In this document: piece after piece, positions 9,501 to 25,057 of the stretch
Layout: the number at the start of each line of letters is the position of its first letter
Numbering within the stretch: position 1 is the first letter of the stretch
DNA from: Stenotrophomonas sp. 364
GTDB taxonomy: Bacteria > Pseudomonadota > Gammaproteobacteria > Xanthomonadales > Xanthomonadaceae
NCBI RefSeq assembly: GCF_009832905.1
Contig: NZ_CP047135.1
Coordinates: forward strand, 1,652,001-1,716,000
Direction: 5' to 3'
Length of the DNA: 64,000 nucleotides
Position numbers and translations under genes: made by a program
The notes under the pieces: generated by a model
The model's input: the letters and a program-made list of their open reading frames with translations, nothing else
What the model was told of the DNA's origin: nothing
Databases searched by the model: none

Positions 9501-11678
9501 TCAGTCGGCCGCCGACTTGATGTTGTCGTAGAAGAACCGCTCGTCCCGCTCGCCTGTCAGGTTGTACAGAGGGTACTTGCGATTGAGCATGGCGCCACCG
9601 TCGCGGATCAACGGAGCCCAGTTGATCGTGGCCTGAGAGCGCGTCGAACGGGGCAGTACCGTGTCGAGCGGAATGCTGAAGTAGATGCCCTTGTCGAAGC
9701 TGCCCTCGCCAAATTCGGCCGCCGACACGTTTGTCTTGGTCGCGTAAGCGCCCATGGTCATGCCATTGTCGAACACACGGGCCAGGTTGATCGTGGCGCC
9801 GTAGTCACCGGCCAGATAGCGCCCGGCCGAGAGCGATCCGACCACACGCTCCTTCGCGTCGAACGTGTAGTACAGCGTGGCATGGCCGGTGGTGATGCTG
9901 TAATCACGCAGTCCGAAATGCTGGTCATAGTCGCGCTGGCGCACGTAGTTCAGATTGCCGCCCACCGCCCAGCTTTCGCCCATGGGGCGGTAGAGCAGCT
10001 CACCGCCGACGCCCGCGTACATCCACTCCAGGTAGCCTGCATACGCCATGCCATAGATGTCGCGTCCGAGCCTGCGTGCAACATTGAGCTGCAGGTTCGG
10101 CATCATCACGTCCGACGTCGTGGAGTACTGGCGCAGGTCGGTGCGTACGCGCGGCAGGTTGCTGGGCGCGTCGAAGCGGAACTTGTCGTAGTTGTTGATG
10201 ATGTCCGCGCTGACGGTGCCGGTCAGCCAGACATTGGGCCGGAAGAACACGCTGCCGCTGAAATTCGCTGCGACCTGGTAGAGGATGAAGCCGTCGGGAC
10301 CGCCAAGGTTCTGGCGGTAGCCGATGCTGTAACCGCCGCCCCACGGCTTCTTGGCTTGGGTGTAGAGGACTTCGCGTTCAACATCGGCAGGCACGGAAAC
10401 CTCGGTGCTGCGGCGCAGATCATCTTCGGTTGCACGCCCGTCCAGGTAGGCTTCAAAGGTGTCTTGCTTCATCGACGCATCGATGATCGGCATGCCCAGT
10501 CGCGTAGTCCGGAAGGTATACCAGTCGTATTCGCTGCCCACCTCGTTGCCCAGGATGCGTGCGGCGCGCCCCATGCCTTTTGCGTTGTGGTAGTAGTTGG
10601 CCTGGTAGCCGTCGATGTACAGTTCACTGCCGCGACGCGAGATCTGCTCGATGCGGAGACCGGCATTCTGGCGCAGTTGGCGGGCGACGCTTTCCCAATC
10701 GACTTCGGTACCTTGCGCCTGCGCATTTGCCACCGCGGACTGCGGTAGCGCATCCGGCTGTGTCGGGACGCGCTGTTTCAGCTTGACCGGCGCAGGGTCG
10801 AATGGCTTCGCCGACGAAGCGGCCTGCCCTGGATTGCCCCGGAACGTCAGCGAGAACATGGCCGCATCGCCGCGTTCCCACGCGGCAGCCAGTTCGATGT
10901 TCCGGTTCGGAACATAGACCAGGCCGACGTTGATGGGCGTGGACTGATTCAGGTTGTTCCTGCGGGGCTCGCGCTTGTAGTCATTACCGTCGTACTCCAC
11001 CTTGAGCAGGAGCGCATCCCAGGGGGTTTGGTAGGTAATGCCGCCGAAGATGCCCACCGGCCCCTTGAACATGTTGCTGGCACCAAACTTGCCGGCGTCG
11101 TTGATGTTGCTGCCTGCGATGGGGCGGCGATCCTTGAAGCGATCATCAATCGCGCCAAGGGGGTTTGAGAAGTCCCCGCGGTTGCCGATGTAGCCGGTGG
11201 CCAAGCCGATGGAGGCATCCACCGGGCCAAAGTTCTTGCTGGCGACAAGATACTCACTGGAGAAGAAGCCGGTGCCGCCAAGGTCACGCACACCGAAGGC
11301 AAGGTCGGGTGTCCAGCGCGTTTCCTGCCAGAGACGGACCTTGAAATCGATCGACTTGTCCTTGTAGTTCTGGTCGCCGCTTATATCGGTTGAGCCGTAG
11401 CGGATGTTGGAGACGTTGATGTAGCGGAACGCACCCTCCAGCCAGGGAAAAGGCTGCATGGTTAGGTTGTAGCGGCTGTACGGTGAATTGTGCGAAGCAG
11501 TGAAGGCGATGTCGCCATCAGCCGCCATCCGTGCGGTGGGCGTCTGCAACAGTCCTACGCCGCCCCATTCACTCGCGGTGACGGGTGGTGCTTCCTGTGC
11601 ATGGAGGCTGGCCGACAGGGCCAGCGCAAGCATCGAGAATGCAAGCGTCGTCGGACGCGTCGTCTTACGGCAGATCAC
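9501..11678 (-). CDS. YjbH/GfcD-like outer-membrane exopolysaccharide protein
   Basis: A 725-residue protein with a signal peptide ending near LHAQ, then long beta-rich stretches with WGGVGLLQTPTARM and alternating aromatic strands. This is the pattern of YjbH-family outer-membrane lipoprotein/barrel proteins of the yjbEFGH and gfcABCD operons. The GTG start at 11678 overlaps the stop of the gfcC-like gene (GTGA), and a longer reading with a non-signal N-terminus is rejected. The family is tied to capsule or exopolysaccharide secretion. The stop codon lies in the loop of a 9-bp hairpin. Confidence 0.85.
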   Translation of the reverse strand: MICRKTTRPTTLAFSMLALALSASLHAQEAPPVTASEWGGVGLLQTPTARMAADGDIAFTASHNSPYSRYNLTMQPFPWLEGAFRYINVSNIRYGSTDISGDQNYKDKSIDFKVRLWQETRWTPDLAFGVRDLGGTGFFSSEYLVASKNFGPVDASIGLATGYIGNRGDFSNPLGAIDDRFKDRRPIAGSNINDAGKFGASNMFKGPVGIFGGITYQTPWDALLLKVEYDGNDYKREPRRNNLNQSTPINVGLVYVPNRNIELAAAWERGDAAMFSLTFRGNPGQAASSAKPFDPAPVKLKQRVPTQPDALPQSAVANAQAQGTEVDWESVARQLRQNAGLRIEQISRRGSELYIDGYQANYYHNAKGMGRAARILGNEVGSEYDWYTFRTTRLGMPIIDASMKQDTFEAYLDGRATEDDLRRSTEVSVPADVEREVLYTQAKKPWGGGYSIGYRQNLGGPDGFILYQVAANFSGSVFFRPNVWLTGTVSADIINNYDKFRFDAPSNLPRVRTDLRQYSTTSDVMMPNLQLNVARRLGRDIYGMAYAGYLEWMYAGVGGELLYRPMGESWAVGGNLNYVRQRDYDQHFGLRDYSITTGHATLYYTFDAKERVVGSLSAGRYLAGDYGATINLARVFDNGMTMGAYATKTNVSAAEFGEGSFDKGIYFSIPLDTVLPRSTRSQATINWAPLIRDGGAMLNRKYPLYNLTGERDERFFYDNIKSAAD

Positions 11679-12445
11679 GGTGTCAAAGCCTGTGTTGCGA
11701 TGAACGCAGCAAAATCGGTGTTGAATGACGGGTCGACCTTGTTGATCTCGCGCTCGCGCAGGGGCACGTAGATGACCCCGCCCGGTGCAACCGTCTGGGG
11801 GTCGGCGCGGTTCCAGAGCGCGATTCCGATCCGCTGGACGACCATGTCCGGCTGGATGACAAACAGGTCGCTGGGGTCGGCCGCCTTCGTGATGGAGCAA
11901 TCCCGAAGATAGTCGCGGGCATCGCGTTCGGGTTGGTGCGGCAACTCGCAGGCAGCGCCGACGGCACCCATAACGGTGATCGTCGTCGGACGGGGCGGAA
12001 AGTGTAGTTTGTCACCGGGCGCCAGCACCGGGTCTGCCATAGGTTGGACCTGCATCAGGCGTACATCCGTGGTTGCCAGAGGGACGCGCCCCGTGGCGTC
12101 GCGCGCGTCGATCCACTGCAGGAGTTGTTCGGCGACCTTCGCTATCTCCGGGCGTTTGTGGTCCTGGAGGTCGATGAGGTCGTGCTCGATACCCGCACGC
12201 AGACGCACCTGTTCAAGGCGATCGTGTTCGCGGAAAAGAGCGGCACCGGGCAGGTAGGCCTGGGTGCCAGGGCGCGCGGTTGCAAGCAGGCTCGAAACTC
12301 GCGCGCCTGTAGCGAGCGTGTAGTCGCCCGGTGCATGGACCTGTCCGTCGACACGGGCTATCAGTGATGCGGATTGTGCCATAGCCGTCCAGGTGGTGCA
12401 CGACCACACAAGCCCTGTCGCCAGGGCAAGGAAACGCAACTGCAT
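11675..12445 (-). CDS. GfcC/YjbG-like periplasmic capsule biosynthesis protein
   Basis: A 256-residue protein with a signal peptide (cleavage near AMAQ) followed by VDGQVHAPGDYTLATGARV, the ubiquitin-like/SLBB-resembling start of the GfcC N-terminal domain. A second related stretch (ITVMGAVG) lies near residue 155. GfcC is a periplasmic protein needed for group 4 capsule assembly in E. coli. The gene is 3 bases downstream of the lipoprotein gene and overlaps the YjbH-like gene by 4 bases, so all are in one transcript. Confidence 0.83.
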   Translation of the reverse strand: MQLRFLALATGLVWSCTTWTAMAQSASLIARVDGQVHAPGDYTLATGARVSSLLATARPGTQAYLPGAALFREHDRLEQVRLRAGIEHDLIDLQDHKRPEIAKVAEQLLQWIDARDATGRVPLATTDVRLMQVQPMADPVLAPGDKLHFPPRPTTITVMGAVGAACELPHQPERDARDYLRDCSITKAADPSDLFVIQPDMVVQRIGIALWNRADPQTVAPGGVIYVPLREREINKVDPSFNTDFAAFIATQALTP

Positions 12446-12448
12446 GTC

Positions 12449-13129
12449 TCAGTCCTTCGATGTCCGGTAGGGCTTGAGCTGAACCAGCTCAACCTCATAG
12501 TCCGGGCTCAGTTGTTGGCGGCTTTTCCAGATGAAGCCCGTCGCAGGATCGGCCCAGTAGATATTGTGGGCCCGCATGCCACCGTCGAGGCGTTCATCGA
12601 ATCGGATCAGGTCGCGCTTGCGGCCCAGGATCTCCACCGACTCCAGCGGACCTCGTTGGACGGTGCCATGCGCCTGGACACCCATCCGGTAGCCGGGGAT
12701 CCAGTCGTATTCACGCTGCACGGGCGCACTGCCTTGAAGGTGTGCAAGGTTGCTGAAAGGCGAGGGGCCAACGATACGCGAGTGGAGCTGGCGCCCATTG
12801 CCCGTTGTCCCCGTCAGCAGCCCGTTGGCATCGAGCTTGAACACGGCATGGTTGCCGGCATACCAGGTCTGCTGCCCTTCATCGACGAAGCCCAGCACCA
12901 TAACGGCCGCCATGTCCGGCGCCTTCAGCTGTGCCTGTGGATAGGGCGTGGCTGCCACCTGCGCGGGTGTTGCCTGTACCCGACCCTGGAACAGCAGGCG
13001 GAACGAATCACTGGTGGCGCGGCTGCCCGTGGTGCAGCTGGCCAGCAGCATTGTGCTGGCCAAGGCGATGCACGACATCAGCACCATGGGCGCCTTGTGG
13101 CGCCGTGCGTGCACGTCAAAGGCTGCCAT
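12449..13129 (-). CDS. GfcB/YjbF-like lipoprotein
   Basis: A 226-residue protein with an N-terminal hydrophobic segment and lipobox LLASC (Cys32 from the first ATG; an internal ATG at residue 15 would give a more typical short signal). The mature part, including DSFRLLFQG near its start, fits YjbF/GfcB lipoproteins. Position in the order wza-like, gfcB, gfcC, gfcD supports the call. It lies one base after the stop of the wza-like gene. Confidence 0.8.
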   Translation of the reverse strand: MAAFDVHARRHKAPMVLMSCIALASTMLLASCTTGSRATSDSFRLLFQGRVQATPAQVAATPYPQAQLKAPDMAAVMVLGFVDEGQQTWYAGNHAVFKLDANGLLTGTTGNGRQLHSRIVGPSPFSNLAHLQGSAPVQREYDWIPGYRMGVQAHGTVQRGPLESVEILGRKRDLIRFDERLDGGMRAHNIYWADPATGFIWKSRQQLSPDYEVELVQLKPYRTSKD

Positions 13130-13130
13130 G

Positions 13131-14240
13131 TCAGTTGTTCCCGACTTCGCTCTCCGTGCGCGCAGCGGTATACAGGATGTTGCTGAACGGCAACAGCTGG
13201 TTCACGAAGCGATTCCAGCGGGTCACGCCTGCGGCACCGACGAAGACCACATCGCCAGGCTGCAGCATGAACTGGCTGCCGACGGCGAAGGCGGTGGGGG
13301 AACGAGCCTCAAGCTGGAACACGCGCGAGGGTATCGTCTGCAGGTCCTTGCTGCCGCGGATCACATAGACCGCATTGCCGTTCGAGGTTTCCTGGGTCAG
13401 CCCGCGGGCGCGACCCAGTGCCTGGTTCAGCGATACGTCGCCTGTGCGGAAGCTGTAAGCGCCCGGCAGATTCACTTCGCCGACAACGAAGATTTCTTTT
13501 CGGTCAAGGTACGGAATGAAGATCGAATCACCGTCCTTCAGGTAGAGCTGCCGGCCGCCATACTGCGTGGCGAGCGTCTCCAGGTTGACAGTGAAGGTGG
13601 CACCGCCGCGGCTCAGCTTGACGCCCGACAGGTCGGCCTGACTCGGGTTGAGGCCCGCCTGGCTGATCGCATCGGACAAGGTGAGGGGAGAGGTGCCCAG
13701 GGCAATGGGTGCGGAACGTTCCGCAGCGCCGGTCACCCACACGCGTTGGCTGCCGTAGTTGAGGATCGAGACGTCGACCTGGGGCGATTCGATGTACTGC
13801 GCCAGGCGGCGGCTGATCTCTTCGCGCAGCGCCATCGGCGTCTTGCCGCGGGCCTGCACTTTGCCGATGTAGGGATAGAACAGGGCGCCGTCGCTCTGCA
13901 CCAGGCGGCCGGCAAGGTTGCCCTGCTGCTGGGAGCCGGCGGGGACGGTCAGCTCCGGGTGGTCCCAGACCGTGATGTACAGGACATCGCCCGTCCCGAC
14001 GGTGTAATCGGCAGGCTGGTAATCGAACAGTTCGGGCGGAAGGACCTGCTCATCCTGCGTCGCGCGATCCATCGCGATGAGTTTTGGAGTGATGGTGACC
14101 ATCTCCAGGGTGCGATCATCGCTTTGCCGGCCAGCCGATACATCGCTGTGACGCAGGTACTGTCCTGGCGCAAGCATGCAGCCGGACAGGGTGGCAGTCG
14201 CCAACAGGGCGACCGCAAGGCAGGTGAACTTCATGGTCAT
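13131..14240 (-). CDS. Wza-like polysaccharide export outer-membrane lipoprotein
   Basis: A 369-residue protein. Signal peptide and lipobox LSGC (Cys21) are followed by a poly-export domain (GDVLYITVWDHPEL, about residues 80-170) and SLBB-type repeats (VWVTGAAERSAPIAL; IFVVGEVNLPGAYSF). It should form the outer-membrane channel through which the polymer is secreted, partnering the tyrosine autokinase at the window start. ATG 14240 (MTMKF) is chosen; the longer frame from 14282 would begin inside a terminator. In the E. coli gfc operon wza (gfcE) follows gfcD; here it is second. Confidence 0.9.
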   Translation of the reverse strand: MTMKFTCLAVALLATATLSGCMLAPGQYLRHSDVSAGRQSDDRTLEMVTITPKLIAMDRATQDEQVLPPELFDYQPADYTVGTGDVLYITVWDHPELTVPAGSQQQGNLAGRLVQSDGALFYPYIGKVQARGKTPMALREEISRRLAQYIESPQVDVSILNYGSQRVWVTGAAERSAPIALGTSPLTLSDAISQAGLNPSQADLSGVKLSRGGATFTVNLETLATQYGGRQLYLKDGDSIFIPYLDRKEIFVVGEVNLPGAYSFRTGDVSLNQALGRARGLTQETSNGNAVYVIRGSKDLQTIPSRVFQLEARSPTAFAVGSQFMLQPGDVVFVGAAGVTRWNRFVNQLLPFSNILYTAARTESEVGNN

Positions 14241-14266
14241 GTAGAGTCTGATTTTTCGGCGGGCAT

Positions 14267-14299
14267 AAAAAACCCTCGCCAAGCATGGCCCGGCGAGGG
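14267..14299 (-). terminator. Intrinsic terminator (attenuating) after the gfcA-like gene
   Basis: On the minus strand, a perfect 8-bp stem (CCCTCGCC with GGCGAGGG) is followed at once by six T residues. It lies between the gfcA-like gene and the wza-like gene of the same orientation. It should make the first gene more abundant than the rest of the operon, unless the wza-like gene has its own promoter. Confidence 0.85.
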
Positions 14300-18942: not shown

Positions 18943-19188
18943 ATGAGCGTATCGCCGCATTCGCCGCCCGGCGCGCCCACTACGCCCACGCCAGGGTCGC
19001 CTGTTGCGCCGCCCGTGGAAGTACCGGTAAGCCCGGAACCGCCGGTGCAGGAGCCACCGACCGAAGCGCCGCCGCAAGGCGATCCTCCCGCGCAAACCCC
19101 GCCGCTGGAGGCGCCGCCTGAAGGCGATCCGGCCCCTGCATCGCCACCGGTGGAAGCGCCGCCCGCGCCGCCGCCTGGGCAGCAGTAG
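18943..19188 (+). CDS. Proline-rich small hypothetical protein
   Basis: An 81-residue protein, roughly two fifths proline, from ATG 18943 with GGAG 8 bases upstream. It consists of repeating EAPP/PPVE-like blocks with Gln, Glu and Ala and has no signal peptide or membrane helix. Such sequences are usually extended and flexible. The good ribosome binding site favours a real gene, but high-GC DNA easily produces proline-rich frames. Function unknown. Confidence 0.5.
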   Translation: MSVSPHSPPGAPTTPTPGSPVAPPVEVPVSPEPPVQEPPTEAPPQGDPPAQTPPLEAPPEGDPAPASPPVEAPPAPPPGQQ

Positions 19189-19209
19189 GCGCACAACGGG
19201 TGCGTTGAC

Positions 19210-19380
19210 TCAGTCCCGCGACGGGGGCGCCTCATAGTCGGACGGGGTGACCTTGCCGTCGTCCTGTTCCGGCATGTCCTTGTCCTTCCACCGGGCGTCG
19301 TCATTGCGGACGGTGTCAGGCGTGAACGCCTTCTGCTGATCGTCTTCAGGCGTGCCGCGTGGGTGGGTGGGTGTGTTCAT
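19210..19380 (-). CDS. Small acidic hypothetical protein
   Basis: A 56-residue hydrophilic protein from ATG 19380 (MNTPTHPRGTPEDDQQKAF), rich in Asp, Glu, Lys and Pro, with no membrane segment. It converges with the proline-rich frame. The codon composition looks coding and the low-complexity charged sequence resembles small stress-type proteins, but no family is recognised. Confidence 0.45.
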   Translation of the reverse strand: MNTPTHPRGTPEDDQQKAFTPDTVRNDDARWKDKDMPEQDDGKVTPSDYEAPPSRD

Positions 19381-19528
19381 TCGCTGACGCCTGTGCGGGT
19401 GAAGTTGGAGCATCCTGCCGCCCGGGTGAACGTACCGTCGCTCCCCCTCAACATGGCGCACACGGTTGAGTCACCCCCCCCGTACGCGGTACGGCGTAGC
19501 AATGGTGCATCCCTCACTGGAGCAGCAT

Positions 19529-20692
19529 ATGCGCGCTTTGACCTACCACGGCAGCAAGGACGTCCGTGTCGACACCGTCCCCGATCCGGTGCTGGCGGCC
19601 CCCGACGACCTGATTCTGCGCGTGACCGCCACCGCGATCTGCGGCTCGGACCTGCATCTGTACCGCGGCAAGATCCCCGACCTGCACAGCGGCGACGTGC
19701 TGGGTCATGAGTTCATGGGCATTGTCGAAGAGGTTGGCAGCGGTGTGAGCGACCTTCGGCCGGGCGATCGGGTCGTGATTCCGTTCGTGATTGCCTGTGG
19801 CGCCTGCTTCCATTGCCGTCTTGCCGAATTTGCCGCATGCGAAACCACCAACAGCGGCAAGGGGGCGGCGATCAACCAGAAAGGTATCCGTCCGCCGGCG
19901 GCGCTGTTCGGCTATAGCCACCTGTATGGCGGCGTGTCGGGCGGGCAGGCAGAGTTCGTGCGCGTGCCCAAGGCCAATGTAGGGCCGTTGCGGATTCCTG
20001 ACGGGCTGTCCGACGAGCAGGTGCTGTTCCTGTCCGACATCCTGCCCACTGGCTACCAGGCGGCAATCAATGCCGGGGTCAAGCCCGGCTCCAGCGTGGC
20101 GATCTTCGGCGCAGGGCCGGTGGGCCTGATGAGCGCGGCGTGCTGTCGCCTGCTGGGGGCGGAGACCATTTTCATGGTCGACCACCTGGCGTATCGCCTC
20201 GACTTCGCGCAACGCACCTACGGGGTGACGCCGATCGACTTCACGCGTGTCGATGATCCGGCCGAGTACATCGTCACCCAGACCAACGGACGCGGCGTGG
20301 ATGCCACCATTGAGGCGGTTGGCTTTGAAGCCGAGGGCAGTGCGCTGGAAGCCGCGCTGACCACGCTGAAGGTGGAAGGCAGCAGTGGCGTGGCGATCCG
20401 CCAGTGCATCGCGGCCACGCGCCGCGGTGGCACGGTGAGCATTCCCGGGGTGTATGCCGGCTTCGTGCACGGCTTCCTGCTCGGCGATGCGTTCGACAAG
20501 GGCCTGACCTTCAAGATGGGGCAGACCCACGTGCAGAAATTGATGCCGGAGCTGCTCGACCATATCGCCGAAGGCAACCTGGACCCCGGGGTGATCGTCA
20601 CCCACCGGATGCCGCTGGAAGAGGCGGCCAAGGGTTACGAAATCTTCGACCGCAAGCAGGAGGATTGCCGCAAGGTGATCCTGACGCCCTGA
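19529..20692 (+). CDS. Zinc-dependent alcohol dehydrogenase (MDR family)
   Basis: A 387-residue medium-chain dehydrogenase. It has [10 protein letters not shown] (catalytic zinc Cys), [14 protein letters not shown], and the Rossmann motif [18 protein letters not shown]. The structural-zinc loop is reduced ([17 protein letters not shown]). It resembles glutathione-independent formaldehyde dehydrogenase-like enzymes. ATG 19529 (MRALTYHG) has GGAG 7 bases upstream and gives the canonical N-terminus. Only one base separates its stop from the next gene, so it may belong to the same operon. Confidence 0.88.
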
Positions 20693-20693
20693 G

Positions 20694-21671
20694 ATGGCCG
20701 CGAGGATGGAGAGGGCAATCCCCACTGCGGAATCACCCGCGTTGATACAGCAGGCGCGTGCATGGCTGGCCAGCCATCACGCATTGCCGCCACCGGGAGG
20801 AGGCGACACGCTGGAGCGCTGGCGGCACCTGGCGCACCTCGGCGCGCGGGACCTGTGCCTGGCCAAGGTGCTTGAAGCGCATCATGACGCCGAGGCGATT
20901 CTGCAGGAGCTGCAGGCGCCACCGTTGGCTGCAGGGCAGCTCGCTGCGGTATGGGCCGCCGAGGGGCCCGCGGCGACGCTGGCCTTCGATGCACGCAGCA
21001 GCACGTTGAGCGGCACCAAACCGTGGTGCTCGGGCGCCGGGTGGGTGGATACCGCGCTGGTGACGGTGCGGACAGACGGGAAATGCCGCCTGTACCGTGC
21101 AGATCTACGGGGTGCACGCATCCAAAGCGACGTGCAGGACTGGCAGGCCACCGGGATGGAGCGGATTCCCAGTGCCACCGCCCACCTTGACCAGGTGCCT
21201 GCCGTGGAAGTCGGCACCGCCGACGCCTACCTGCAACGACCGGGCTTCTGGCACGGCGGCGCGGGCATCGCCGCGTGCTGGTATGGGGCGGCGACGGCGC
21301 TGGCCGAGCCGCTGCGGTGCAGCGCCAAGGCAGCCGAACCGGGCGTGGTGGCTGCGTTGCTGGGGCAGGTCGATATGACCCTGTCTGCATGCGCGGCGCT
21401 GCTGCGTGAGCTGGCCGCCCGGATCGACGCGGACCCCACGCGCGCCCACATGACCGACGTGGTGAGGGTGCGCAGCGTGGTGGAGCGCGGCTGCGTGCAG
21501 ACCTTGGACCTGGTTGCGCGGGCGTTGGGACCGGGGCCCATGTGCATGGACCCGGCGCACGCCCGGCGCTGGAGCGACCTGACCGTGTTCATCCGGCAGA
21601 GCCATGCCGACCGCGACTGGCAGCAGCTGGGCATGGACTGTCACCGGGAGGGGCAGGGATGGACGCTGTAG
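20694..21671 (+). CDS. Acyl-CoA dehydrogenase-like flavoprotein
   Basis: A 325-residue protein, shorter than ordinary acyl-CoA dehydrogenases (about 380). It keeps an LSGTKPWCSGAGWVDTALV-type middle domain and a helical C-terminal domain, but lacks the clear catalytic Glu signature. Short homologues occur beside PIG-L deacetylase, NodS-like methyltransferase and glycosyltransferase genes, as here. It likely oxidises or binds a thioester or an acylated small molecule. ATG 20694 is taken; ATG 20706 is an alternative. It overlaps the next gene by 13 bases. Confidence 0.72.
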   Translation: MAARMERAIPTAESPALIQQARAWLASHHALPPPGGGDTLERWRHLAHLGARDLCLAKVLEAHHDAEAILQELQAPPLAAGQLAAVWAAEGPAATLAFDARSSTLSGTKPWCSGAGWVDTALVTVRTDGKCRLYRADLRGARIQSDVQDWQATGMERIPSATAHLDQVPAVEVGTADAYLQRPGFWHGGAGIAACWYGAATALAEPLRCSAKAAEPGVVAALLGQVDMTLSACAALLRELAARIDADPTRAHMTDVVRVRSVVERGCVQTLDLVARALGPGPMCMDPAHARRWSDLTVFIRQSHADRDWQQLGMDCHREGQGWTL

Positions 21672-22417
21672 CGCGCCACATCACCGGTGGCGGCGTCACC
21701 GAGGCCCAATGGATGGCGTGCGACTGGCTGGCTTCGCTGCCGGCATCCAATGTCGCGACGCTGCTTGCCGACCATGCACGGCTGGTGGTGGTGTCGCCGC
21801 ATCCCGATGACGAAGTGCTGGCCTGTGGTGGGCTGATGGCGCAAACGCAGGCGCTCGGGCTGCCGGTCGTGGTGATTTCCGTCACCGATGGTGAAGCCTG
21901 CTACCCCGGTCAGCCGGCGTGGCCGCCGCATCGGCTGCGCTGCGCGCGTCAGCAGGAGCTTGCGCGCGCACTGGGCTGCCTGGGTCTGGTCGATGTGGAT
22001 CATCAAGCCTGGCACATCGGCGACGGTGAGGTGACCGGCAGCGAAGCCGCGCTGGACGCGCGCCTGCACACCGTGCTGCGCCCCGGCGATCTGGTGCTGG
22101 GGCCGTGGCGCCTGGATGCGCATCCAGACCACGAAGCGGTGGGCCGTGCCTGCGCGCGGGCCGCAACGTCGCGTGGCTGCGCGCTGCGCGAGTACCCGGT
22201 GTGGGGCTGGCATTGGCTGGATCCGCGCGACGCGCCGGGCGTCTGGACACCGGCAACACGGTTCGCGCTGAGCCCGCAGGTCCTGCAGCGCAAGCGCGCA
22301 GCCATCGCGCAGTTTTCGACCCAGCTGGGTTCCGTGGACGGACTGGACTGCGACCCCATCCTGCCACCGGCGGTATTGCAGCGTTTCGAACGCGCCTACG
22401 AGGTCCTGATCGGATGA
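21659..22417 (+). CDS. PIG-L family deacetylase
   Basis: A 252-residue LmbE/PIG-L protein. The zinc site is seen as HPDDE (His48-Glu52) and a second AHPDHEAVG motif. Relatives remove the N-acetyl group from GlcNAc moieties of GPI, mycothiol and bacillithiol precursors or antibiotics. ATG 21659 has GGGAGGGG upstream and lies inside the end of the previous gene. The enzyme would expose a free amine for methylation or acylation by its neighbours; the substrate is unknown. Confidence 0.88.
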   Translation: MDAVARHITGGGVTEAQWMACDWLASLPASNVATLLADHARLVVVSPHPDDEVLACGGLMAQTQALGLPVVVISVTDGEACYPGQPAWPPHRLRCARQQELARALGCLGLVDVDHQAWHIGDGEVTGSEAALDARLHTVLRPGDLVLGPWRLDAHPDHEAVGRACARAATSRGCALREYPVWGWHWLDPRDAPGVWTPATRFALSPQVLQRKRAAIAQFSTQLGSVDGLDCDPILPPAVLQRFERAYEVLIG

Positions 22418-23001
22418 ACACAACCGCCTACTTCGACGCGCTCTACCAGCAGGAAGATCCGTTCGAGTACCGCACCCGCTGGTACGAGGCGCGCAAGCGT
22501 GCGCTGACCCTGGCCAGCCTGCCGCGGGACCACTACCTGCGGGGCTGGGAGCTGGGCTGCTCCAACGGGGTGCTTACCGCTGCGCTTGCGCCGCGCTGCG
22601 CGCAGTTGCTGGCCACCGACCTGAGCGAGCAGGCGGTGACGGCGGCGCGCCTTGCCTTGGCCAGGCACGTGCATGTGCGGGTCGAGCGCGCAGAGCATCC
22701 GCGGCAGTGGCCCGATGGCACCTTCGACCTGATCGTGTTCAGCGAGCTGGGCTACTACCTGGACCCGCCGACGATGCAGGCGATGGCGGCGCGGCTGGCT
22801 GCGTCGTTGGACACGCAGGGCGTGCTCGTCGCCTGTCATTGGCGTCCCGACTTCGCACAGGCGCGGTGCTCGGCGGAATTCGTGCACGCGCAGCTGGACG
22901 CGTTGCTGCCGCGAGCGTTCTCTTGGAGCGATGCCGACATGCTGCTGCAGGGCTGGTCGCGCGACCCCCGCTCGGTCGCCGCGCACGAGGGCCTGCGATG
23001 A
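22414..23001 (+). CDS. NodS-like SAM-dependent methyltransferase
   Basis: A 195-residue class I methyltransferase. Motif I is WELGCSNGVLTAAL (about residues 45-58), followed by LLATDLSEQAV and the FDLIVFSELGYYL motif. The N-terminal YFDALYQQEDPFEYRTRWYE stretch is typical of the NodS-like subgroup, N-methyltransferases acting on deacetylated amino sugars in the best-known case. ATGA overlap with the deacetylase gene suggests sequential action on one substrate; this is inference. Confidence 0.86.
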   Translation: MNTTAYFDALYQQEDPFEYRTRWYEARKRALTLASLPRDHYLRGWELGCSNGVLTAALAPRCAQLLATDLSEQAVTAARLALARHVHVRVERAEHPRQWPDGTFDLIVFSELGYYLDPPTMQAMAARLAASLDTQGVLVACHWRPDFAQARCSAEFVHAQLDALLPRAFSWSDADMLLQGWSRDPRSVAAHEGLR

Positions 23002-23720
23002 TCGCCGCAATCGTTCCGGCGCATAACGAGGAGCGTCTGATCGGCCCGTGCCTGCAGGCGCTGCAGTCCGCCGCGCGGCATCCCGGGCTGGCGGGCGAGG
23101 CGGTGGCGATCGTGGTGGCGCTGGATCGGTGCAGCGATGCGACGGCTGCGGTCTGCCGGCGCTTCGGCGTGCACGTGGTACGGGTGGAAGCCGGGTGCGT
23201 CGGCGTGGCCCGGGCCGTGGCCAGCGAGCATGCGCTGTCGCTGGGCGCGCGTTGGATCGGCTGCACCGATGCCGACAGCCGGGTGCCGGCCGACTGGCTG
23301 TGGCGGCAGGTGGCCTGCGAGGCCGGCGCCTTCTGCGGGGTGGTCAGCGTGGATGACTGGCTGGACTACGCGCCTTCGGTACGGCAGCAGTTCCTGCTTG
23401 GCGAGCGGGCGCAGGATGGACATCCCCATGTGCACGGCGCCAACATGGGATTCAGTGCAGCGGCGTACCGCGACAGCGGCGGCTTCCTGCCCCTGGCCAC
23501 CGGCGAGGACGTCGCGCTCATCGATGCAATCCAACGCAGCGGCGCGCGGGTGGCGCGGCTGGCAGCGCCCCAGGTGGTGACCAGTGCGCGTCGGCACGCG
23601 CGGGCAAGCCATGGCTTCAGCGATTTCCTCAAGCGCCTTGAGCGCAGCATCGGCGATGCACCCGCATCTTCCGGTCTGGCGGTGTGCGCCACGGGCACCA
23701 AACCGGCGGGGGCGTGCTGA
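22998..23720 (+). CDS. Family 2 glycosyltransferase of the PIG-L cluster
   Basis: A 240-residue GT-A glycosyltransferase beginning AAIVPAHNEERLIGPCL, with DADSR (residues 91-95) as metal site and GFLPLATGEDVAL in the acceptor region. It has no membrane helices. Its start overlaps the methyltransferase stop and its own stop overlaps the SemiSWEET start, so it is translated as part of one tight operon. The sugar moved is unknown. Confidence 0.87.
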   Translation: MIAAIVPAHNEERLIGPCLQALQSAARHPGLAGEAVAIVVALDRCSDATAAVCRRFGVHVVRVEAGCVGVARAVASEHALSLGARWIGCTDADSRVPADWLWRQVACEAGAFCGVVSVDDWLDYAPSVRQQFLLGERAQDGHPHVHGANMGFSAAAYRDSGGFLPLATGEDVALIDAIQRSGARVARLAAPQVVTSARRHARASHGFSDFLKRLERSIGDAPASSGLAVCATGTKPAGAC

Positions 23721-23989
23721 TGGCCGCTATCGATCTGCTGGGGTGGGCTGCGACGGCGGTGCTGGTGGCGACCTTGTGGCGCCAGATCTGGAAGCAGTGG
23801 CGCGCCGACGATGCCCAGGCGGTATCGACGTGGCTGTTCATTGGCCAGATGACCGCCTCGGTGCTGTTCATTGCCTACAGCATCGCGCTGCATTCCTGGG
23901 CATTCGTGGTGACCAACAGCCTGGTGCTGGCCACCGCGATTGCAGGGCAGTGCATGGCTTGGATGAAGCGCCGACGCGCGCTGTCGTGA
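23720..23989 (+). CDS. SemiSWEET/PQ-loop sugar transporter-like protein
   Basis: An 89-residue protein with three membrane helices, the exact size and topology of bacterial SemiSWEETs, which dimerise to pass small sugars. The PQ-loop position reads LWRQIWKQW, so the usual Pro is replaced by Arg. ATG 23720 shares its A with the preceding stop. An alternative upstream start at 23684 would add 12 non-conserved residues. It could move the product or substrate of the cluster. Confidence 0.75.
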   Translation: MAAIDLLGWAATAVLVATLWRQIWKQWRADDAQAVSTWLFIGQMTASVLFIAYSIALHSWAFVVTNSLVLATAIAGQCMAWMKRRRALS

Positions 23990-24165
23990 CGGAGCAATCG
24001 CGCATTGAACACGCCGAACAAACAACTGTATTTCGCCGTGCATACCTCGCTGAATCGTGTGTTTTCAGTGTCACGCCGACTTCATCGGCGATGCGGAAAA
24101 GTGGACCCACCCAAGCACGGGCACCCCGCAGAAGCGGGCATCCCGACACCACAGGAGCATCACCA

Positions 24166-24615
24166 GTGACTACCGAAACCAAGACCACCCACACCTTGAA
24201 CGACCTGATTGAAATCGCCCGCGACGGCAAGGATTTCTACACCGAAGCTGCGGGCAAGGTGAAGGATGCCGAACTGTCTGCGCTGTTCACCCGCATCGCC
24301 GGGGTGAAGGACGAACTCGTCCGCTCGCTCAGCGCCACGGTTCTGGCCGCCGGTGGCAAGCCGGCCGACCACGGCACGGTGGTGGGTTCGATGCAGCAGT
24401 TCTACGGCAAGGTCCGCGCCACCCTGGGCGACACTCAGTATGGCTATGTTGCCGAACTGGAAGAGTCTGAAGACCGTCTGCTGAAGGCGTTCAAGGACAC
24501 CCTCACCGACAGCGACACCACCCCGGCTGCCCGCCAGGAAGTGCAGCGCTTGCTGCCGCAGGTGCAGGAATGCCATGCGGTGATGCGCGACCGCAAACAT
24601 GCGATGAAGCACTGA
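24166..24615 (+). CDS. PA2169 family four-helix-bundle protein (DUF2383)
   Basis: A 149-residue soluble, helix-rich protein with the ferritin-like TLNDLIEIARDGKDFY start and the repeated Glu/His-bearing helices of DUF2383. Start GTG 24166 has AGGAG 9 bases upstream. Members are often stress-associated; a metal-binding or stress role is inferred from fold only. A strong hairpin follows the gene. Confidence 0.83.
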   Translation: MTTETKTTHTLNDLIEIARDGKDFYTEAAGKVKDAELSALFTRIAGVKDELVRSLSATVLAAGGKPADHGTVVGSMQQFYGKVRATLGDTQYGYVAELEESEDRLLKAFKDTLTDSDTTPAARQEVQRLLPQVQECHAVMRDRKHAMKH

Positions 24616-24663
24616 CACCTGGCAATACGGGCGCGTTGACCGGCGCCAGATGAACACGCGCAC

Positions 24664-24688
24664 ACAGCCCCGGGATTCCCGGGGCTGT
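24664..24688 (+). terminator. Hairpin terminator after the DUF2383 gene
   Basis: An 11-bp perfect stem (ACAGCCCCGGG with CCCGGGGCTGT) with a 3-base loop lies about 50 bases after the stop. The T-tail is short (TCT), so termination may be partial. Confidence 0.6.
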
Positions 24689-24769
24689 CTGCGTAAGGGG
24701 GCCGGACGCCGCCGTACGGGGGGTGGGGATTTGGTGCATACTCGATCGAAAGGCCTGACTGGATCTGTT

Positions 24770-25057
24770 ATGGAACACATGCGTTGGCTGACACTTCGGC
24801 TTGGCAACAATCAATCCATCGGACCGAAGGTGCTGTCGGACCTGTGGTCCAATGCCTGTGAAACGAATCAGTCGTCGGTGACCCGCGATACGATGCCGGG
24901 CAAGTCCACGTCCTATGCGCTGCATGCGCCGCTGTCGCTGGCCTACCCGAAGCGCGCCGAACTACGCATGCGCAAGCTGCTGGAAGAGGCGGGCTACACG
25001 TTCACGCTGGGCTCGCTCGCCGACCGTCCCGCACCGCAGCCGGTGCGCGCGCGCTGA
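24770..25057 (+). CDS. Hypothetical protein, 95 aa
   Basis: A 95-residue basic protein from ATG 24770 (MEHMRWLTLRLGNN). It has no signal peptide, membrane helix or cysteine pattern. The middle (PGKSTSYALHAPLSLAYPKRAELRMRKLLEEAGYTF) reads as genuine coding sequence with a probable helix. A frame reaching upstream to 24650 includes the terminator region and is rejected. No family is recognised. Confidence 0.55.
   Translation: MEHMRWLTLRLGNNQSIGPKVLSDLWSNACETNQSSVTRDTMPGKSTSYALHAPLSLAYPKRAELRMRKLLEEAGYTFTLGSLADRPAPQPVRAR

Follow-up and report, generated by a model that had tools for sequence, protein, structure and literature searches.

In Nod factor tailoring, a glycosyltransferase of family GT2 (NodC), an N-acetylglucosamine (GlcNAc) N-deacetylase (NodB) and an N-methyltransferase (NodS) work in one pathway. 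In mycothiol and bacillithiol synthesis, too, a glycosyltransferase acts before a PIG-L enzyme, which deacetylates the GlcNAc glycoside. Here we analyzed a group of genes in a 64,000-nucleotide stretch of the Stenotrophomonas sp. 364 genome (NZ_CP047135.1, positions 1,652,001 to 1,716,000, forward strand; the whole stretch is called the window below). Four of these genes encode a protein with the acyl-CoA dehydrogenase (ACAD) fold, a PIG-L deacetylase, a NodS-like S-adenosylmethionine (SAM) methyltransferase and a small GT2 glycosyltransferase, and they form a cassette that recurs in many genera. We propose, with a probability of about 0.5, that the cassette makes a small N-modified amino-sugar glycoside for stress or stationary-phase survival by a logic like that of Nod factor tailoring. 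Searches of the open-licence literature found no publication on the cassette or on what it makes.

An earlier note on this DNA had described five overlapping genes at 20694..23989. The open reading frame coordinates and Pfam matches placed all five there, on the + strand, with overlaps between neighbours of 13, 4, 4 and 1 bases in gene order:

20694..21671, + strand: ACAD-fold protein, a probable flavin monooxygenase by predicted fold, profile matches and Gln302; core gene
21659..22417, + strand: putative PIG-L N-deacetylase by PF02585, kept motif residues and profile matches; core gene
22414..23001, + strand: NodS-like SAM methyltransferase, with NodS its best NCBIfam match (under the cut-off) and 4isc and NodS its profile matches; core gene
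22998..23720, + strand: small GT2 glycosyltransferase by PF00535, invariant D91/D93/E170/D171 and a GT-A-type model; core gene
23720..23989, + strand: PQ-loop/SemiSWEET-like membrane protein by PF04193; lineage extra

Conservation and linkage of the four genes

Co-occurrence across genomes, the check that the earlier note had suggested, was examined at 80 named loci, which are the best 80 of 549 confirmed ACAD-fold loci ranked by match to the query, 40 of them from the query's own family. Within 6 kb of the ACAD gene, the methyltransferase was found at 78, PIG-L at 73 and GT2 at 73 of the 80. Because these loci are the best query matches, sets of 21 and 20 further loci provide the fairer sample. 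The methyltransferase, PIG-L and GT2 were near the ACAD gene at 21, 18 and 15 of the 21 further loci and at 18, 19 and 18 of the 20 later loci. The four families thus recurred together. Among the 80 named loci, 41 had the order ACAD-PIGL-MT-GT2 (MT, methyltransferase), 12 had the same order followed by SemiSWEET and 12 had GT2-ACAD-PIGL-MT, and the remainder were ACAD-MT-GT2 (7 loci), ACAD-PIGL-MT (5), ACAD-PIGL (2) and one other arrangement.

The hosts included Stenotrophomonas, Xanthomonas, Luteimonas, Pseudomonas, Halomonas and Burkholderiales (Gamma- and Betaproteobacteria-type), together with Rhodococcus, Mycolicibacterium, Nocardia and Gordonia of the Actinomycetota, in which GT2 mostly came first. 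The distribution of the ACAD-fold protein is sporadic and not universal: a profile search found ACAD-fold relatives in 22 of 299 phylum genomes, 7 of 369 class genomes (3 of them among those 22), 14 of 150 genomes of one family and 24 of 119 genomes of another. The ACAD-fold protein was also encoded in 31 of 72,556 plasmid records, 19 of them from Acinetobacter.

SemiSWEET was found at 12 of the 80 named loci, all of them in Xanthomonadaceae/Lysobacteraceae; the homologue search used a one-sequence model, which can miss distant homologues. An alcohol dehydrogenase gene lay upstream on the same strand at 11 of the 80 and at any position within 6 kb at 13. The conserved core is therefore the ACAD-fold, PIG-L, methyltransferase and GT2 genes, and SemiSWEET and alcohol dehydrogenase are additions of particular lineages.

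We then considered cassettes whose parts are separated. Whole genomes were searched for PIG-L in 3 of the 7 named and all 3 further loci without it at the locus, and for GT2 in 4 of the 7 named and all 6 further loci without it. A cassette-type PIG-L was encoded elsewhere in 4 of the 6 genomes without a local copy (158 to 317 bits); of the remaining two genomes, the first had no PIG-L and the second nothing better than a match of 70 bits. A cassette-type GT2 was encoded elsewhere in 9 of the 10 genomes without a local copy. In Caballeronia udeis (the L133 genome; L222), a lone PIG-L gene stands where loci L106, L117 and L132 carry ACAD-PIGL-MT, and ACAD-MT-GT2 is found elsewhere. The L220 and L221 genomes, which have no PIG-L at the ACAD locus, contain a second cluster with both a cassette-type PIG-L and a cassette-type GT2, plus a GT4 enzyme, a further enzyme resembling GT2 and a protein, about 400 amino acids long, that matches nothing in Pfam (L220:3286-4485). 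Furthermore, pairwise distances among the four proteins were correlated (r 0.73 to 0.88, against a permuted maximum of 0.23, for the 102 loci, out of 129, that carry the complete cassette), a correlation to which shared species history contributes.

Since proximity is conserved, split cassettes usually retain the missing parts and the proteins diverge together, the four genes very probably share one pathway. One locus weighs against this: in Methylobacterium sp. FF17, the ACAD gene stands alone. The shared five-gene pathway of the earlier note thus holds for the four core genes and not for SemiSWEET, which the narrow distribution given above removes from the core.

Several records call for comment in their own right. 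L054 (JAHREJ010000006.1) is titled Bacillus subtilis strain SK7B5 and carries a cassette ACAD 73% identical to that of the window; it is probably a mislabelled or contaminated assembly. L053 (CAKLQH020000004.1), from a phage collection, is named Acinetobacter phage MD-2021a, and ordinary metabolic genes flank its cassette, so that it resembles a bacterial chromosome. L231 (NZ_CP077849.1), filed as an Acinetobacter baumannii plasmid, is chromosome-sized at 3.66 Mb, with aph(3')-Ia annotated at a distance of about 6.5 kb from where the ACAD match ends. On the Pandoraea vervacti plasmid (L046, 11239-11905), the GT2 match lies in two overlapping frames, and the gene seems broken or misread.

Stress-gene neighbours and the local operon

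Clustering of neighbouring genes, which contained antisense reading frames and served only for picking leads, showed trehalose-6-phosphate synthase, katE-type catalase, LigD and DUF2383 as recurrent neighbours of the cassette. Individual loci illustrate this context. On an Acinetobacter soli plasmid the four genes follow one another in the cassette order, close to a gene for trehalose-6-phosphate synthase; in Comamonas antarctica the four genes are flanked by trehalose-6-phosphate synthase and trehalose-phosphatase; in Legionella lytica trehalose-phosphatase and a glycoside hydrolase family 65 (GH65) gene precede PIGL-MT-GT2-ACAD; and in Cupriavidus basilensis PIG-L adjoins a catalase gene and a PA2169-type protein is encoded ahead of ACAD.

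One or more families of an 11-family stress list were present in 27 of 58 cassette contexts and in 2 of 40 control stretches, the list having been drawn from the neighbours of those same 58 loci and including DUF421 and DUF72, for which a tie to stress is not shown. The enrichment concerned otsA/otsB, katE and ligD. Taken singly, otsA was found in 6/58 contexts and 0/40 controls, katE in 6/58 and 1/40, ligD in 6/58 and 0/40, and DUF2383 in 4/58 and 0/40, with one-sided p values across the four of 0.038 to 0.14. In the 20 held-out contexts, which include two incomplete cassettes (L195 and L196), the list was represented in 5, compared with 2 of 40 controls (p 0.036); all five had katE, and none had ligD or DUF2383. 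Pooling gave 11/78 against 1/40 for katE (p 0.042) and 7/78 against 0/40 for otsA (p 0.050). A crude model of even density makes these counts far rarer (binomial, about 1e-7).

Published expression data point in the same direction. In A. baumannii, the four genes ACICU_02432-02435 are marked as one operon and were down 31- to 62-fold in both mutants, and otsA, otsB and a catalase gene are in the same 33-gene list (PMC5660220, Table 2). The four annotations of this operon, and their order, are those of the cassette; the identity of the two rests on annotation, order and one annotated Acinetobacter contig that carries these genes in this order. ACICU_02432-02435 are reported there only as differentially expressed genes (PMC5660220). 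In A. baumannii, the cassette is apparently switched along with the genes for trehalose and catalase. In desiccated Acinetobacter sp. Tol 5, multiple acyl-CoA dehydrogenases fall, in passages that name neither PIG-L nor the deacetylase (PMC13130816); the cassette gene may or may not be one of them. EcfG promoters were considered for the Alphaproteobacteria-type loci and rejected, since the 8 cassette loci had 4 motifs in 141 kb and the control regions 22 in 320 kb; a single one of those 4 lay upstream of an ACAD gene, at a distance of about 250 bases.

In the window, two further genes adjoin the cassette:

19529..20692, + strand: zinc alcohol dehydrogenase by PF08240/PF00107, ATG start at 19529; optional lineage extra
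24166..24615, + strand: DUF2383 protein, downstream, PF09537 at 95.5 bits; family recurrent in cassette contexts

Because the alcohol dehydrogenase gene stops 1 base ahead of the ACAD-fold start, the operon probably begins upstream of 20694, and alcohol dehydrogenase is probably its first gene in this lineage. The earlier note mentioned neither this gene nor the neighbouring stress genes. A scan of 19000-24900 for sigma-70 promoters and terminators found neither. Farther upstream, at 11675-14282 on the - strand, GfcC, YjbF/GfcB and Poly_export/SLBB genes form a group 4 capsule-type export cluster.

Predicted chemistry and alternative readings

We infer the order of the steps, the sugar, the acceptor, the oxygenase chemistry and the biological role as follows. 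GT2 would move an N-acetylhexosamine, most likely GlcNAc, from a sugar nucleotide onto an acceptor; PIG-L would strip the acetyl group and free the amine; the NodS-like enzyme would methylate that amine; and the ACAD-fold protein, as a flavin-dependent monooxygenase, would oxygenate either the amine or the acceptor. The product would be made alongside trehalose and catalase and aid survival under stress or in stationary phase. A more specific form of this proposal, in which the product is a multiply methylated, oxidised amino-sugar glycoside (a sugar betaine or N-oxide) that acts as a compatible-solute-like protectant beside trehalose, is speculative and improbable in that detail. The sequence of glycosylation, deacetylation and N-methylation put forward in the earlier note fits the nearest relatives of known structure, and it also fits the catalytic motifs of PIG-L and GT2, which are intact.

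The glycosyltransferase matched Glycos_transf_2 (PF00535) with 37.9 bits (cut-off 23.3). D91, D93, E170 and D171, which we take to fill the DxD and ED motif roles, were invariant in alignments of 20 and 47 rows. The model was of GT-A type with a predicted local distance difference test score (pLDDT) of 91, and its nearest fold match was WrtF. The nearest folds include the lipopolysaccharide (LPS) and wall-teichoic-acid glycosyltransferases WrtF, TarS and TarP, extra GT4 and GT2 genes recur beside split parts in Alphaproteobacteria-type genomes, and capsule-export-type genes lie 7 to 11 kb upstream in the window. One pathway might therefore decorate a polymer or lipid (capsule, LPS or glycolipid), with a GlcNAc branch added by GT2 and then deacetylated and N-methylated in place. 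However, at 11 to 24% identity these matches are a reflection of the GT-A fold; among the genes recurring in cassette contexts, untargeted clustering showed none for a polymerase, flippase or lipid carrier; and the recurring neighbours are stress genes rather than envelope operons. We regard decoration of a polymer or lipid as possible but unlikely.

For the ACAD-fold protein, the only Pfam ACAD match was PF02770 (Acyl-CoA_dh_M), and since its 19.6 bits fall below the curated cut-off of 33.3, the label of acyl-CoA dehydrogenase is weak. At the C-terminal YEGT position, all 60 of the 60 family rows have Gln302. Of 9 ordinary ACADs, 8 have Glu there, the catalytic base of these enzymes; shortly before this column, one residue is gapped in the alignment. 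The same comparison shows the R-K-x-F-G stretch to be missing and L-G-P-G-P to stand in place of H-G-G-M-G. An acyl-CoA step, which the earlier note gave as an option ('redox or acyl step'), is thus unsupported, and the protein is not, on this alignment, an acyl-CoA dehydrogenase.

A flavin-dependent monooxygenase is the probable alternative. The top profile matches were TdsC/DszC-type flavin monooxygenases, and the AlphaFold2 model (pLDDT 91) predicted a full ACAD fold. Class D flavin monooxygenases (DszC, TdsC, MsuC and the nitrososynthases DnmZ and KijD3) also have the ACAD fold; the model, fold matches and alignment show the cassette protein to have this fold without the dehydrogenase Glu, and GTKxxCSG and WxxxGM stretches are common to it and these enzymes. 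The cassette protein differs in being shorter, at about 325 amino acids with a reduced N-terminal domain compared with roughly 390 to 400, and identity is 11 to 19%. No paper naming the catalytic residues of DszC was found in the open-licence literature, and those residues were not used; no flavin reductase is encoded in the cassette. The loss of the catalytic Glu, the two altered stretches and the shortened chain would also fit a binding or scaffold subunit without flavin chemistry, in a pathway of glycosylation, deacetylation and methylation only. But E61, H63, Q302 and other residues were invariant across 30 diverse rows, as is typical of enzymes, and the predicted fold is complete with flavoenzymes as its profile matches, so that we consider a scaffold role decidedly unlikely.

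The methyltransferase, a class I enzyme by its Pfam and NCBIfam matches, matched NodS in Pfam with 37.4 bits (cut-off 24), the generic Methyltransf_25 scoring higher at 46.8; NodS was also the best NCBIfam match, with 51.2 bits against an equivalog cut-off of 300. Compared with solved structures, its profile gave 233 bits for 4isc, 108 for NodS and 62.5 for the next. 4isc, deposited as 'Methyltransferase', a name that carries no function, belongs to the cassette family, and on these scores NodS is the nearest characterised structure. The PQ-loop protein matched PF04193 with 26.6 bits (cut-off 22) and stayed below the NCBIfam SemiSWEET_2 cut-off (25.6 against 80).

PIG-L matched PF02585 with 78 bits (cut-off 28.2), and the cassette gene was the only match in the whole single-contig genome of 4.84 Mb. 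In its HPDDE and HPDH motifs, whose residues we take to have zinc and base roles, H48, D51, D157 and H158 were invariant in 26 of 26 rows, and P47, D50, E52 and H155 were at least 90% conserved. Its nearest profiles were TT1542 and diacetylchitobiose deacetylases. The best NCBIfam match was BshB1, with 46.4 bits against a cut-off of 182.5; MshB scored 22.7 against 224.35, and BshB2 and Mca were also far under their cut-offs. A relative of the thiol cofactors carrying a methylated, oxidised group in place of cysteine ligation, which the glycosyltransferase and PIG-L logic and the BshB1 match would favour, is very improbable given these scores, a GT2 rather than a GT4 enzyme, and no cysteine ligase noticed among recurrent neighbours, the genomes not having been searched for one.

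If the cassette does make an amino-sugar glycoside as proposed, four enzymes kept together across two phyla, and on plasmids too, would point to a common yet unrecognised stress metabolite. Such a pathway would also assign a function to the 4isc methyltransferase and to proteins that thousands of database entries label acyl-CoA dehydrogenase; ACAD-fold relatives at E 1e-3 number 5389, not all of them necessarily in cassettes.

Comparison with Nod factor and thiol pathways

The earlier note had likened the genes to mycothiol, bacillithiol and Nod-factor chemistry without a match to any of them, and the comparisons bear this out: the NodS, MshB and BshB1 cut-offs were not reached. Relative to mycothiol and bacillithiol synthesis, the cassette has a GT2 enzyme rather than a GT4 enzyme (MshA/BshA), its PIG-L falls under every curated thiol-pathway cut-off, and a methyltransferase and an ACAD-fold protein stand in place of cysteine ligation.

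With Nod factor tailoring, the cassette would share the roles of GT2 enzyme, GlcNAc deacetylase and N-methyltransferase, and NodS is the nearest characterised structure to its methyltransferase. By Pfam, the cassette proteins include no NodB-type polysaccharide deacetylase, only the PF02585 PIG-L, and no NodA acyltransferase, for which the genomes were not searched. PIG-L thus takes the place of NodB and a small GT2 that of NodC, and an ACAD-fold protein is added; the order of steps would be alike, with another deacetylase, no acylation and an extra oxidation. The hosts differ as well, including Actinomycetota and non-rhizobial Pseudomonadota. On the features compared, the sequences place the cassette outside the Nod factor, mycothiol and bacillithiol pathways, which it resembles in logic only.

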